Shown: positions 30,448 through 45,055 of the stretch, in pieces | Layout: every line of letters starts with the position of its first letter | How positions within the stretch are numbered: position 1 is the first letter of the stretch | Assembly (NCBI GenBank): GCA_025934695.1 | Contig: JAICWS010000001.1 | Location: 649,301 to 713,300 of the forward strand | Length of the DNA: 64,000 bases | Source of the DNA: Alphaproteobacteria bacterium | GTDB lineage: Bacteria > Pseudomonadota > Alphaproteobacteria > Micavibrionales > UBA2020 | Direction of reading: 5' to 3' | Position numbers and translations under genes: made by a program | Notes under the pieces: model-generated | Told to the model about the DNA's origin: nothing | What the model saw: only the letters and a program-made list of their open reading frames with translations | Databases searched by the model: none

Positions 30448-31581
30448 ATGGCGCCTCCGGAAACAAAAGCATCCGCCATCGCCGCCGTCATTGACGATTT
30501 GTCGAGGCCTTTCTCCGCGCTTCCCGGCAAAGCCACGCGCATGTTCAGTATGATGTGCGGCGACGGGCCACGGATCAGGAAACTTTGTGCCGACATTGCC
30601 TTGTTGCCCGAGGGCCGCGACCTGCTGCGCTTCGGCCGCCGGCAGGGCGTAGCGGTCTTTCTTCGCGACGACGCAGCGTTGAACGGGAGTATCGGCGAGA
30701 CCAAAAACCCCGAACATGCCTTTCAATCGGCTGTCGTCACGCTCAATCGCTCTTACCCCGATACCCAGCTGGTGATCACGCTGGTGCATGAGCTGCGCCA
30801 CGCGCAGCAGGCCCACCTTTTGAAGAAAAATGGCGTATTTCACTGGTCATTGCGCGAAGAAACTTTTTATGACCGGCTGATCGAGACGGACGCCTATACC
30901 TTCCAGACCATTTTCGCCCTGAAACTGAAGCAGGCCGGCAGGCCGGAATTCCTCGCCCAGATGAACGATGCCGCGACCGACAACATCAGGGAATTCCTTG
31001 CGGCGCATCCGCCGCAAACATTCAAGGACGAGCAGGCGCTGGCGCGGGGCCTTTTCACATACCTCGCTCTTCATCCGCTCGACGGGTATACCGCGGATGA
31101 ACTTGACTACATCATGGGACAGGCGGCAGCGCAGCCGGCCCGGCAAAAACCCTTGCCGCTGGATAAAATCAAGGGATCCGGTCTGGACGCGCTCTATGGC
31201 AGCGAATTCGTGGCAAGCCTATCGATGCGCGCACTGAAGACTGGGTTTCTCCAGACCTGGAGCTCTTGGGACCGCGCCACGATCCGCGCCGTGGAAAAAA
31301 TGCAGGCGACGGTGGCGGAAGCGACGGAAGACGAACTGTCGCGGCGGGAGCATTTTCTCCTGCTGCGGGCCGTGGCCCGCAAACAGACGTCAGCGCAAGG
31401 GGTCAAGACGATGGCCGGCATGCGCTTTGATACCTATTGCGGCGGCGGAAAACATTCCCGGCGCGCAAGGCCGAAGCTTCTCACGCAATATGCGAAGAAG
31501 GCGTTCGCTGCCTGCCGCCCCACGCGACGGAAAACAGCCGCACGCCGGCCGCGCAGGAATGCCACTTCAACTCCGGGCTGA
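30448..31581 (+). CDS. Putative zincin-like metallopeptidase (DUF6782-type)
   Basis: 377 aa. HELRH at residues 114-118 is an HExxH zinc motif in the context VHELRHAQQ; a downstream RLIETDAYTFQ (Glu146) could supply the third ligand. This layout resembles DUF6782-type putative metallopeptidases. No signal peptide. The C-terminal 45 residues are strongly basic (RRARPKLL, RRKTAARRPRRN) and may be a nucleic-acid binding or export tail. Paired with the hydrophobic protein upstream (14-base gap). Substrate unknown; an effector or contact-dependent toxin role is possible but unsupported. Confidence 0.55.
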   Translation: MAPPETKASAIAAVIDDLSRPFSALPGKATRMFSMMCGDGPRIRKLCADIALLPEGRDLLRFGRRQGVAVFLRDDAALNGSIGETKNPEHAFQSAVVTLNRSYPDTQLVITLVHELRHAQQAHLLKKNGVFHWSLREETFYDRLIETDAYTFQTIFALKLKQAGRPEFLAQMNDAATDNIREFLAAHPPQTFKDEQALARGLFTYLALHPLDGYTADELDYIMGQAAAQPARQKPLPLDKIKGSGLDALYGSEFVASLSMRALKTGFLQTWSSWDRATIRAVEKMQATVAEATEDELSRREHFLLLRAVARKQTSAQGVKTMAGMRFDTYCGGGKHSRRARPKLLTQYAKKAFAACRPTRRKTAARRPRRNATSTPG

Positions 31582-41359: not shown

Positions 41360-42235
41360 TTAGCTCTGTTTCGGCGGCTTTGGTGTTGCTGCGGGTTGCG
41401 CTACCGGCTGCGACGCGGGCTTAGGCGCGGGCAGGATGCGCGCGGTTGCGGTCTCTGCGATGGTGTCCTGCACCGCCTTCGACAGGTCGACTTCCGTGCC
41501 CTGCCAGTAGGCGGGGCCGTCGACGAGATGATGCTTCACCTTGCCGGGGAAATCTTTCGCCAGCTGTTCGGACAGGAATTCCGCGCTGGTGTCGGGCCGC
41601 GCGAAGGTGATGAAATCGACGGTCGCGCGATAGCGGCCTTTCAGCAGCTTTTCCATCTGCGCCTTCGCCGCCGGATAATCGGCGAAATCGCCGTCGCCGA
41701 TGACGATGAAATGCGTGGGCTTGCCGTTCGCCTGGTTCAGCGCGGCGGCCTTGATCATCTCGTCGACGGCCGGTTTGAAATCCGCCGAGGCGCCCTTCTT
41801 CTCGAAGCCTTCGCGCACTTTCGGGTCAAGAATGTCATCCGTCACATGACGCACCTCATCCATGCTGCCCCAGAGCGCGATGCCGGCGTGAGCGCCTTCC
41901 TTCAATACCGCGGCGCCGTCGAGCGCGGCATAGAAGGGTTTTTGCGTGATGCTGCCGGTATGGTCGATAAAGACGAAAAATTCATGGGCCTTCTTTTCGT
42001 GCGCGAGCAGCCCTTTGAGGTAAGCGGCCTGCACGGAAATGCGGTCGCGGTAGCGCGCGGCCTGGTGCGCATCCTCGCGCGCCTTCGCCTCTTCCAGCGC
42101 CTTCGCGGCCTGGCCCAAAGCATCGGCCTTGCGGCGATTGTCGTTCGCCGCCTCGGTAAATTCATGCTGGAGCTTTTTCACGGCCTCAAGGGCCTGCGAC
42201 ACATCGGGCCTGCCGCCCTTCGGGGTAAATTCCAT
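41360..42235 (-). CDS. VWA-like domain protein with coiled-coil N-terminus
   Basis: 291 aa from the ATG at 42235; the longer frame would overlap the tRNA. Residues 10-95 are Lys/Glu/Ala-rich and helical. From ~105 a VWA-like fold starts: HEFFVFIDHTGSITQKPFYAALDGA with the MIDAS-type D-x-T-x-S, IALWGS, and THFIVIGDGDFADYP, ending in a Pro/Ala tail. VWA proteins mediate metal-dependent protein contacts. It lies 24 bases downstream of the tRNA-Pro gene and upstream of a GNAT gene. Confidence 0.65.
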   Translation of the reverse strand: MEFTPKGGRPDVSQALEAVKKLQHEFTEAANDNRRKADALGQAAKALEEAKAREDAHQAARYRDRISVQAAYLKGLLAHEKKAHEFFVFIDHTGSITQKPFYAALDGAAVLKEGAHAGIALWGSMDEVRHVTDDILDPKVREGFEKKGASADFKPAVDEMIKAAALNQANGKPTHFIVIGDGDFADYPAAKAQMEKLLKGRYRATVDFITFARPDTSAEFLSEQLAKDFPGKVKHHLVDGPAYWQGTEVDLSKAVQDTIAETATARILPAPKPASQPVAQPAATPKPPKQS

Positions 42236-42259
42236 CGCCGCCGCCGTCCAAAAAAGAAA

Positions 42260-42336
42260 TGGTCGGACTGAGAGGATTTGAACCTCCGACCCCTTGCACC
42301 CCATGCAAGTGCGCTACCAGGCTGCGCTACAGTCCG
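42260..42336 (-). tRNA. tRNA-Pro (anticodon GGG)
   Basis: Minus strand, 77 nt with CCA encoded. Acceptor CGGACTG (42336-42330) pairs with CAGTCCG; the D-arm carries GCGC...GCGC; the anticodon stem CTTGC/GCAAG surrounds loop ATGGGGT with anticodon GGG; the T-arm has GGAGGTTCAAATCC. The cloverleaf is complete. A leading C and discriminator A match tRNA-Pro. Confidence 0.95.
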
Positions 42337-42430
42337 ACACTTTGGTTGGGGGACTATATCAAAGTACCCATAACAAAGTAAAGCGCTGATCGGGGTTATC
42401 GAGCGTAAAAACCGGAAATCCCGTTCAATA

Positions 42431-42805
42431 TCAGGCCCGAGTTCCGCTTTTTTGCGCGGTTTCCGGTGCACCTTCGTGCCCGGGATCGTTGGCCACGGCC
42501 AGCAGGCGGAAGGCCGCCTCGCCCGGCAGCGGCCCGTGTGTGGTTTTGGCGGCGCTGCGCCACTGCGCGATTTCCTCGCGCAGGTCGACGAGCTTGACGA
42601 TCATGAAGCCGGAGATCCCGGCGGCGAAAGCGCCGATGCACAGCACGGCCAGCAGACTGCCGAAACTGAAGGGCAGCAGGACGAAACCAAAAACGCCCAT
42701 CGCCACGAAGGGCAGCGCGAGGATCGGGCCGATCATCTCGCGCTTGGGCCGCGGCATCCCGTCATAGATTTTCTTCAGCCGGAGGAATTCTTCCTGGTAC
42801 ATCAT
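42431..42805 (-). CDS. Two-helix membrane protein of unknown function
   Basis: 124 aa from the ATG pair at 42805 (AGGTG upstream). A helical N-terminus (QEEFLRLKKIYDGMPRPKRE), then two membrane helices at about residues 28-45 and 48-68, a soluble C-terminal half of about 50 residues with charged helices, and a mixed tail. No family recognised. It is upstream of the tRNA-Pro gene on the same strand, and divergent from the three small paralogues. Confidence 0.6.
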   Translation of the reverse strand: MMYQEEFLRLKKIYDGMPRPKREMIGPILALPFVAMGVFGFVLLPFSFGSLLAVLCIGAFAAGISGFMIVKLVDLREEIAQWRSAAKTTHGPLPGEAAFRLLAVANDPGHEGAPETAQKSGTRA

Positions 42806-42995
42806 GGCGCACCTGTTCTGTTGCTTGCACTGGTTGAATATGGTAATTCGGTTCCAGTTGCGAGTCAATCTCAATATCACCGGTCTATGATAGCGCCAAA
42901 CAGGGTCTTTTGACCATTCCCTGCAAACATTTAACATAATATTGACCTGATGGCCAGCTTATGATAGTCTTGCCTTTGTTTTTGAAAGCGCCCCG

Positions 42996-43199
42996 ATGAG
43001 CAAGAAACCGAAGAAGAAAACCACCCTCAGCCTCGACTTCCGCCGCCTATCCGGCGAAGACGCGCGCTCGATGTCGGAGAATACGGTCGGCAACATCGAA
43101 CCCGACGCTACGCCAGCGAGCGCACCTACGCTCCCGGCCGCGGAGCCGGAACAACCCAAAGAGCCTTTTCAGGGGATGTATTATCCCCTTGGCCGGTGA
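42996..43199 (+). CDS. Small paralogue 1 with N-terminal LxLDFRRLSG motif
   Basis: 67 aa. Lys-rich N-terminus, then TTLSLDFRRLSGEDARSMSENTVG, NIEPDA, and an Ala/Pro/Glu-rich tail ending YYPLGR. The first 35 residues align with the N-termini of the next two genes (consensus K-x-I-x-L-N-F-x-R-M-S-G-x-x-x-S-A-M-A-x-x-T). The remainder is low complexity and probably disordered. The gene starts the cluster, and its stop overlaps the next start. Unknown family; see findings. Confidence 0.55.
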   Translation: MSKKPKKKTTLSLDFRRLSGEDARSMSENTVGNIEPDATPASAPTLPAAEPEQPKEPFQGMYYPLGR

Positions 43200-43462
43200 T
43201 GATGGAAGCAAGCGACCGCAAAACGATCAACCTCAATTTCGGCCGCATGTCGGACAAGACCGTCTCCGCTATGGCGGCGCAGACGCTGAGCCCCGATGTC
43301 GCGCTCGAATCTGCATCTCCGCCCTCTTCCGCCGACGCCCCGGATAAGGAAAGCCTATCCTCCCCCTTCAATCAGGCGGCCAGCGCGCAGACAGACAATG
43401 AGACGCTGCGGAGCAGGATCAGAAGAATAGCGGACGAGCTGAAGGACGCTTATGCGATCTGA
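43199..43462 (+). CDS. Small paralogue 2 with KTINLNFGRMSD motif
   Basis: 87 aa. RKTINLNFGRMSDKTVSAMAAQTLSP at the N-terminus, then a Ser/Ala/Asp/Pro-rich middle and a C-terminal helix (ETLRSRIRRIADELKDAYAI). The start at 43199 overlaps the stop of paralogue 1 (TGATG), so the genes are coupled; a second ATG lies at 43202. No signal peptide or membrane helix. Confidence 0.6.
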   Translation: MMEASDRKTINLNFGRMSDKTVSAMAAQTLSPDVALESASPPSSADAPDKESLSSPFNQAASAQTDNETLRSRIRRIADELKDAYAI

Positions 43463-43491
43463 TAAATTCGATAATGGCACAAGGTGAACCG

Positions 43492-43890
43492 ATGACAACA
43501 TATGCCGGCAACGCCGCTCCCCGAAAAATCAACCTGAACTTCCGACGCATGTCTGGCCAGCAGGTCAGCGCGATTGCCGCCGGCACAATGGAAAGCGCGA
43601 ATGTCCCTTCGGTCATCGAGCTGCCCGTGGAGGAAACGCCCGCACCCGGTTTCAACACCGCCGCCGCTCCAAAGCCGCAAACGCTCCAGCAGGCGATCGA
43701 CGATCTTGTCGCCTATAACGAAGCCTTGCGCATCGCCAGCCACATAGCGAGCCGGGGCGTTGCGGACGTCAGGCAAGCCACGGATGAATTGAAACAGGCC
43801 GCGGATAAACTCCAGCAATCCATTCCGGCAGCGGACGCAGAACAGCATCCGTCGCTGTGGCGGCGACTGAAAGGCCGCGTTTTCTCTTAA
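43492..43890 (+). CDS. Small paralogue 3 with RKINLNFRRMSG motif and helical C-terminus
   Basis: 132 aa from the ATG at 43492 (AAGGTG six bases upstream). The N-terminal motif RKINLNFRRMSGQQVSAIAAGTM matches the two preceding genes. A Pro/Ala linker follows, then a helix-rich C-terminus (LQQAIDDLVAYNEALRIAS, VRQATDELKQAADKLQQS) and a basic end. Probably a docking-type short motif joined to variable tails. Function unknown. Confidence 0.6.
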   Translation: MTTYAGNAAPRKINLNFRRMSGQQVSAIAAGTMESANVPSVIELPVEETPAPGFNTAAAPKPQTLQQAIDDLVAYNEALRIASHIASRGVADVRQATDELKQAADKLQQSIPAADAEQHPSLWRRLKGRVFS

Positions 43891-43899
43891 GGTATCGGT

Positions 43900-44409
43900 T
43901 TAAGGAATGGCGCCAGGGCCGACGACGGCCTTGACCTTGTCCGTATTCAGCGGGCGTTCGCGCCCTTTGCCCTGCGCCGCTTTGCGCTCGATCGAAAAGC
44001 CGTTGCCGCGCCACAGGTTATCGCAGACGTCGCGATAGACGCGGATGGCGAGGCCGGCCGCCTGCTTGTCGAACGACAAGTTGAAGGTCTTGCGGATATG
44101 GGCAAGCTTTTCGGCATCGCGTTGCGACAGATTAACCTCGAGATGGCCGGTCAGGTAATCGGTGCGGTCTTTATCGCGCGCGTATTTCTGCGCCAGGGCT
44201 TCGTCGAGGAAGACATCGGGCCCATGCCAGGCGCTGCCGACGTTGATGACCCCACCGGCCTGGATTTCGCGCGCCAGCGGGCTGAGGAAATCGACCGCCT
44301 TGGACAAGACGGCTTTCACCCGGCGGTTGGGCCGCGCGCCGGCCTTGATGTTGAATTGTTCGGAAAGCTTCAGCGCCTTCGCAAAATCGCCTTTACGCAG
44401 TGTCGTCAT
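43900..44409 (-). CDS. Unrecognised 169-aa soluble protein
   Basis: Starts at the ATG at 44409 (AGGTAGGA just upstream). Basic protein without signal: LRKGDFAKALKLSEQFNIKAGARPN, then a middle with VDFLSPLAREIQAGGVIN and DYLTGHLEVNLSQRDAEKLAHIRKTF, ending in a Lys/Arg-rich tail. Small hydrophobic helices in the first half and a possible alpha/beta fold in the second. No family recognised. It is convergent with small paralogue 3 (nine-base gap) and shares no strand with it. Confidence 0.6.
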   Translation of the reverse strand: MTTLRKGDFAKALKLSEQFNIKAGARPNRRVKAVLSKAVDFLSPLAREIQAGGVINVGSAWHGPDVFLDEALAQKYARDKDRTDYLTGHLEVNLSQRDAEKLAHIRKTFNLSFDKQAAGLAIRVYRDVCDNLWRGNGFSIERKAAQGKGRERPLNTDKVKAVVGPGAIP

Positions 44410-44529
44410 GTTCCTACCTCGAAGCCATTGTGATAGCAGGAAATGCAGAATATGGCAATATGCCCAACGTTCCACAAAAAAGGCAATTAACCCATGCCGG
44501 CGAAAGCCGGGATGGTTTTAGAAGCGATG

Positions 44530-44568
44530 AAAAAACCAAAGCCGGCAGGGTTGCTGCCGGCTTTGGTT
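44530..44568 (-). terminator. Intrinsic terminator of the merR gene
   Basis: AACCAAAGCCGGCAG (44534-44548) and its complement (44554-44568) form a 15-bp stem; the minus strand then has a T-run (44533-44530). It follows the merR stop at 44585 by 16 bases. Confidence 0.85.
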
Positions 44569-44584
44569 GAGAATTCGGTGAATA

Positions 44585-45055
44585 TTAGCCGATCAGCTTC
44601 CGCATGGACTTGAGTTCGTCCAGCATCGACTTGAGCTCGTCCTTGTTCTTGTGGACGGCTTTCGCGATCGGCGAGGCCTCTTCGCCCACGCGCGCGTTCA
44701 GGTTGCCGCGGCTGGCGGACAGGAGCTTCTGCACGCCCTTGATCGTATAACCTTCCTGGTAAAGAAGGTGGTGGATGTTCTTGAGAAGCTCCACATCTTC
44801 CGGGCGGTAATAGCGGCGGCCGCCGCCGCGCTTGAGCGGCTTCACTTGCGTGAACTTGGTCTCCCAGAAGCGCAGGACGTGCTGTTCGACGTTCAGGTCG
44901 TCAGCCACTTCCGAAATGGTACGGAAAGCGCCCGCCGACTTCTGCGGCGAGACCTTTTGCTTCATCGGACGGCGGTTGGGCAGTTTCTGAGTCGCCTGGT
45001 CCGGGGCTAATTCAGGTTGCAGTTCGGGCTTCAGTGAAGATTGGTTAGCAGTCAT
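44585..45055 (-). CDS. MerR-family transcriptional regulator
   Basis: 156 aa. A disordered N-terminal extension of about 40 residues precedes the winged-helix: [25 protein letters not shown] and [35 protein letters not shown]-terminal coiled-coil helix without the cysteine motif of metal sensors. A MerR gene directly after ihfA is usual in alphaproteobacteria, and its regulatory target is unknown. Confidence 0.9.

Follow-up and report, generated by a model that had tools for sequence, protein, structure and literature searches.

The window, by which we mean the whole stretch of 64,000 nucleotides of alphaproteobacterial DNA that was analysed, carries at positions 42996-43890 three small co-directional ORFs, here called A, B and C. 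They lie, together with a convergent gene, in a stretch of DNA that is missing from the matching place in related genomes. The features, in window coordinates, are the following:

42876..44584, no strand: lineage-specific insertion of ~1.7 kb, holding the trio and the convergent 191-aa gene; its flanks align to the related genome G001
42996..43199, plus strand: gene A, 67 aa, a diverged motif followed by a Pro/Ala-rich tail
43020..43088, plus strand: motif copy in A (TTLSLDFRRLSGEDARSMSENTV), aa 9-31
43199..43462, plus strand: gene B, 87 aa; the ATG at 43202 is another possible start (86 aa)
43220..43288, plus strand: motif copy in B (KTINLNFGRMSDKTVSAMAAQTL), aa 8-30
43492..43890, plus strand: gene C; the likelier start gives 132 aa, the alternative at 43474 gives 138 aa
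43522..43590, plus strand: motif copy in C (RKINLNFRRMSGQQVSAIAAGTM), aa 11-33, counted from the start at 43492
43684..43839, plus strand: helical tail of C, residues 65-116; a 577-aa protein encoded at locus L026 has a homologous C-terminal helix region
43900..44475, minus strand: gene of at most 191 aa, convergent to the trio and within the insertion, with no family match; a candidate companion of the trio

The coupling of two of these genes by TGATG, noted in the preliminary description, is real, as the stop codon of A (TGA, 43197-43199) overlaps the ATG of B (43199-43201). For C, the ATG at 43492 is preceded by AAGGTG and, judged by eye, is the likelier start, favoured over 43474. The GC content at the first, second and third codon positions of A-C ranges over 0.54-0.65, 0.48-0.51 and 0.69-0.75, respectively.

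When the stretch 42381-44700 of the window was compared by blastn with G001, the alignment ran to 42875 and resumed at 44585, leaving a gap of 1709 bp here against 63 bp in the relative. The gene order plsX-fabH-ihfA-merR, followed by tRNA-Pro, is kept in five relatives of the genus, with plsX lying past the contig end in one of them (G005); four of the five also have, between merR and the tRNA, a relative of the 168-aa gene, and in G001 extra genes separate it from the tRNA. At E 0.01, A, B, C and the 191-aa gene all went unmatched in the corresponding loci of the five relatives. The trio and the 191-aa gene are a lineage-specific insertion at this place, in whose four genes a search of Pfam gave no transposase or integrase match.

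The three genes had been described as beginning with a common motif. Its core comprises 23 residues and reads roughly K-x-I-x-L-x-F-x-x-[MF]-S-x(6)-[IM]-A-x-x-T-[hydrophobic]. Profiles from which each copy was omitted in turn were run against a set of 2594 open frames (192,390 aa in all), taken from the window and from three further loci, and they recovered B (E 9.6e-10), C (E 5.5e-10) and a fourth gene, D (E 1.8e-6), which lies elsewhere in the genome. The sharing of the motif within the trio is thus firm for B and C, but weak for A, which was found at E 0.78 only (rank 7) when omitted from the profile. A has 7 of the 23 motif residues in common with B, and 7 with C; since its own leave-one-out value is weak, its place in the motif family is argued from its adjacency to the other two and from the core L-x-F-R-R-[LM]-S, and we regard it as a probable, if weak, member, not established by statistics alone. 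A match elsewhere in the window (30683-30772, E 0.044) was rejected as a further copy, being a short frame within a 377-aa ORF.

It had also been stated that the C-termini of the three proteins differ completely. For B and C this is wrong, as the two are homologous almost end to end (E 1e-11): residues 8-84 of the 87 of B align with residues 11-103 of C, with 37 of 99 columns identical and 28 gap columns, and the likeness of their linkers was reached by none of 400 shuffles. B is paralogous to C over almost its whole length.

The whole-genome search for the motif that the preliminary description had proposed was carried out with the A-C profile in six frames over the 4.13-Mb genome at E <=10, and it yielded a fourth copy. 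Gene D, on contig 2, was the sole match besides A, B and C (E 2.6e-4). The result that the preliminary description had named as refuting its view, a genome lacking more copies and relatives lacking the conserved motif, was thus not obtained.

L013 1495-1782: gene D, 95 aa; the motif starts at aa 4, with three residues ahead of it

By eye, an AAAGGA is present upstream of D. The genes downstream of D we take to encode a 3'-5' exonuclease and a MutT protein, and an ankyrin-like gene, again recognised by eye, is divergent from it. Ankyrin-like genes were seen by eye both near D (L013 296-1405) and near the pair of genes from another genus described below (L025 445-3379), which may be a coincidence.

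Outside this genome the preservation of the motif, which the preliminary description had made a matter for relatives, is borne out in one place but not in the nearest ones. In the five other genomes of the genus no convincing copy was found; partial, weak matches were obtained in three of them (E 0.35-0.54), and the matches were again partial at E <=10. By contrast, the A-D profile found two tandem genes, 523 bp apart, in a genome of another genus of the same family (G008; E 0.0071 and 0.0154). They lie on contig WGNE01000024.1 of Alphaproteobacteria bacterium isolate RI_263 and are called E and F in what follows. G008 is the one genome with matches among the 12 of the family that were searched outside the genus. 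The two copies, being paralogues, count as one piece of evidence, and E 0.007 over 12 genomes is not overwhelming. To this is added the result of the reverse profile, built from the two G008 motifs only, for which gene C was the best non-self match when 17 other genomes of the family were searched (E 0.372, 13.5 bits). The next matches reached 12.7 bits or less, and, notwithstanding this narrow margin, that C should top the reverse search is hardly due to chance. In the search of the 2594 frames C, B and D came directly after the G008 pair (E 0.02, 0.062 and 0.27, respectively), with A absent among the matches listed.

Further afield, the matches were at the level of chance. In the order, 142 genomes were searched and, leaving out the own genome and G008, 4 of 140 gave a match at E <=0.05, with ~7 expected; all four were partial and one was interrupted by a stop. 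In a class sample of 385 genomes, 13 of the 384 others matched at E 0.05, with ~19 expected, and in the genome with the best class match (G477, E 0.0085) no motif was seen in the ORFs of at least 60 aa. Plasmid records gave no match for C, D or F, phage records none for C, and viral contigs none for the E/F motif, C, the 191-aa gene, D or B. Among assembled genome contigs nothing was found with C, and the E/F motif matched the G008 contig only.

The place of the motif differs between its carriers, as it starts at aa 4 of 95 in D, at aa 31 of 111 in E and at aa 54 of 86 in F. Moreover, the first 42 residues of F recur in a neighbouring protein, G, which lacks the motif (score 150, reached by none of 400 shuffles). 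As the motif may stand first, in the middle of the protein or near the C-terminus, it is portable among its carriers. The two adjacent small proteins of G008 concerned (L025 6294-6554 and 6749-6949) share HPEALEYHHAYLSGHFN, and only the first of them bears the motif as well. A second motif, LSxxFN, seemed to recur in B, E, F and G and was rejected, since between genomes its likeness was reached by 54 of 400 shuffles for B/E, 158 of 400 for B and the N-terminal part of F, and 131 of 400 for B/G.

At the residues that two copies have in common, the codons often differ: at 8 of 14 for B/C, 6 of 11 for B/D, 4 of 12 for C/D, but only 1 of 9 for D/F. The different codons at many shared residues, together with the codon-position GC of A-C, argue for conservation at the protein level and for coding. 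The view that the amino-acid sequence of the motif is preserved and the remainder drifts thus gains support from D, from the two G008 copies and from the differing codons.

That the family seemed undescribed agrees with the libraries. None of A-F has a Pfam or NCBIfam match at the curated cut-off; the matches below threshold include DUF6367 for B (E 0.0084), PHROGs gave only weak matches for A-D (the best phrog_10715, E 0.012, for A) and PADLOC none for A-C at E 0.01. In the literature, no relevant account of the motif family was found in titles and the opening parts of abstracts. The motif carriers are a new small-protein family of a familiar kind, outside curated Pfam and NCBIfam.

The structure of C was modelled with AlphaFold2 together with four relatives, giving a mean pLDDT of 66.8 and a pTM of 0.26. 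The model shows an isolated helix at residues 22-34 directly after Ser21, a helix at 65-110, a short helix at 113-116 and a C-terminal helix at 120-131; at this pTM of 0.26 it contains no strand, and none for INLNF. The pattern read in the sequence, I-x-L-x-F, then Ser, then a helix, agrees with the model. Foldseek found nothing with it (best E 8), C itself had no PDB match, and the motif profile had none at E 10. The amphipathic character that had been ascribed to the motif was not significant, the helix moment being equalled by 479 of 5000 permutations and that of the strand by 588 of 5000; the single copies nearest to amphipathic were, among the helices, those of E (61 of 2000) and F (90 of 2000) and, among the strands, that of A (57 of 2000).

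The preliminary description compared the motif to a docking or targeting peptide. Its conservation and its portability fit this idea, but amphipathicity is unsupported, B and C are related nearly throughout and no partner was found. Still, the reading that we favour, tentatively and at somewhat short of an even chance, is that A-D are a young family of small, largely disordered proteins sharing a docking element of ~23 residues for one partner. The element would combine a short extended stretch (I-L-F) with a helix of ~12 residues that is capped by a Ser, and it would probably bind the same partner in every carrier, most simply by its strand joining the partner's sheet while the helix packs alongside. 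The remainder of each carrier would then bring different parts to that partner. The docking peptides of microcompartments and encapsulins are likewise short portable elements, close to one end of the chain and with a flexible linker after them; they differ in that the motif is internal in E and that it forms no significant amphipathic helix (the same 479 of 5000 permutations). Short portable tags reveal shared machines, and a tag present on several otherwise different proteins would be a ready bait for the common partner.

The tail of C suggests what one such part could be. It is related to the C-terminal helix region of a protein that lies in another gene row:

L026 8455-10188: 577-aa coiled-coil protein, between a vWA-like protein and a ClpB-like AAA protein

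The row (L026 6734-13631; G000, contig 3) consists of the vWA-like protein, the 577-aa coiled coil, the ClpB-like AAA protein (812 aa) and a 299-aa protein. The vWA-like protein falls just under the Pfam cut-off for VWA (E 1.5e-4), and the 577-aa protein has no Pfam or NCBIfam match. An HMM of six orthologues of the 577-aa protein matched C with 29.3 bits (E 7e-8), against no more than 7.0 bits for any of 1000 shuffled copies of B and C, and the ungapped score of the C tail against the 577-aa protein, 87, was reached by none of 1000 shuffles. A plain tblastn of C against L026 did not find the tail at E 0.01; once the word threshold had been lowered, the tail was recovered with each of four composition settings, at E 5e-7 to 1e-5 (9e-7 with composition adjustment). 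The match is limited to residues 65-116, and C, with 132-138 aa, does not have the full-length architecture.

For the other carriers the same HMM was not significant (B E 0.96, D E 45, A E 57). Aligned without gaps, the last 18 residues of B fit the end of the tail stretch (7 of 1000 shuffles) and the tail of A fits the stretch that follows C's region in the 577-aa protein (4 of 1000; whole A, none of 1000), whereas whole B was equalled by 50 of 1000 shuffles and D, with 453 of 1000, does not fit. The fit of A is weakened because Pro/Ala-rich tails make shuffles of the whole protein too lenient, as well as by its profile E of 57, and the fits of both A and B are suggestive only. As to the motif itself, it was not found in the 577-aa protein, a difference between the two families; its derivation from that protein was rejected, as there was no profile match and the heads of A-D were reached by 56 to 882 of 1000 shuffles. 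What C shares with the coiled-coil family is the C-terminal helix segment, and, besides, the vWA-like neighbour of the 577-aa protein has a distant paralogue adjoining the trio (window 41360-42304; 25% identity, E 2e-7), which itself has no Pfam match above cut-off.

Under the docking interpretation, the part brought by C, and less certainly by B, would be a helix related to the C-terminal helix of the 577-aa protein, so that C may bridge the partner of the tag to the AAA/vWA machinery or compete for its coiled-coil partner. The computation establishes the motif, its fourth copy and those in another genus, its portability, the homology of B with C and that of the C tail, and the lineage-specific insertion; beyond this we infer that the motif would bind, that strand addition would be its mode and that a link to the AAA/vWA system may exist. 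The distributions of the two families differ. The 577-aa protein is present in all 6 genomes of the genus and in 4 of the 12 others of the family, that is, in 10 of 18, while the trio is convincing in one of the 6 genus genomes; in G008, a genome that is 91% complete, nothing matched the 577-aa protein at E 0.001. Its absence from G008 makes the AAA/vWA system unlikely as the general partner of the tag. A wider version, in which the motif would be a portable tag for recruitment, passing to unrelated small proteins of a single alphaproteobacterial family and directing them to one machine, while C, and perhaps B, would have acquired the coiled-coil tail of the AAA/vWA system as well and would serve as adaptors between that system and the machine, appears to us doubtful to the point of being improbable. 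Were the tag real, an uncharacterised assembly specific to this lineage would become accessible through it, and that assembly may be tied to the row of AAA, vWA and coiled-coil genes.

The chief rival is an ordinary young paralogous family, carried as the cargo of an island, whose N-terminal part alone would be under selection, for an individual function, with neither a common partner nor the function of a tag. The presence of the motif is patchy (no convincing copy in the five relatives of the genus, and one of 12 other genomes of the family), the insertion is missing at the matching place in the five relatives, B and C are paralogous over nearly all of B, and a conserved N-terminus with drifting tails is equally expected of any young gene family. 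Against it, D and F bear the motif on otherwise different sequences, and F bears it near the C-terminus. We consider this explanation rather unlikely, though serious; even so, such a family would document small proteins outside Pfam and NCBIfam.

Alternatively, the motif could be a self-association mini-domain: the strands of two copies would pair and their helices would pack in the manner seen in the first half of ribbon-helix-helix dimers, giving homo- or hetero-dimers. An extended segment followed by a helix can be read by eye in all six copies, tandem neighbours would be natural hetero-partners, and the model of C has the helix 22-34. Ribbon-helix-helix proteins begin in the same way, with a short extended segment and then a helix; but no second helix follows here, as the next one in the C model begins at residue 65, the turn is longer by eye, no ribbon-helix-helix family is among the Pfam matches of A-F, and the periodicity of strand and helix is not significant. 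By these features the carriers would not be ribbon-helix-helix proteins, as far as a C model of low confidence (pTM 0.26) can tell, and we judge self-association to be unlikely.

The trio and the convergent 191-aa gene could also form an accessory module of toxin-antitoxin or defence type, since they share one insertion and are small, unusual genes. This is very unlikely: A, B, C and the 191-aa gene have no PADLOC match at E 0.01, the 191-aa gene has none in PHROGs, the convergent orientation is not that of an operon, and tblastn at E 0.01 found no relative of the 191-aa gene in the surroundings of D (12 kb) or of the G008 pair (13 kb). Finally, that the trio is a pseudo-family of translated-looking small ORFs with a chance resemblance, for which the non-significant A (E 0.78) might speak, has next to no probability, as it is refuted for B, C and D (leave-one-out E 1.8e-6 to 5.5e-10; B/C E 1e-11) and as codon-position GC and synonymous divergence suggest coding.

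Apart from the searches already given, the 191-aa gene has no match in Pfam or NCBIfam; against plasmids it gave matches at E 0.5 only (8 Phaeobacter plasmids), and against the PDB one match at E 0.55. By eye, one stretch of it may be ribbon-helix-helix-like (LEVNLS...RKTFNLSF...), and its single-sequence model has a mean pLDDT of 35.

In G001, the end of tRNA-Pro recurs as a 67-nt direct repeat (L059 7990-8056 and 13223-13289), the two copies being 96% identical and 5233 bp apart. The genes between them presumably encode a very-short-patch endonuclease and a C5 DNA methyltransferase, and the repeat-flanked stretch is probably an element integrated at tRNA-Pro, the tRNA that lies near the trio in the window.
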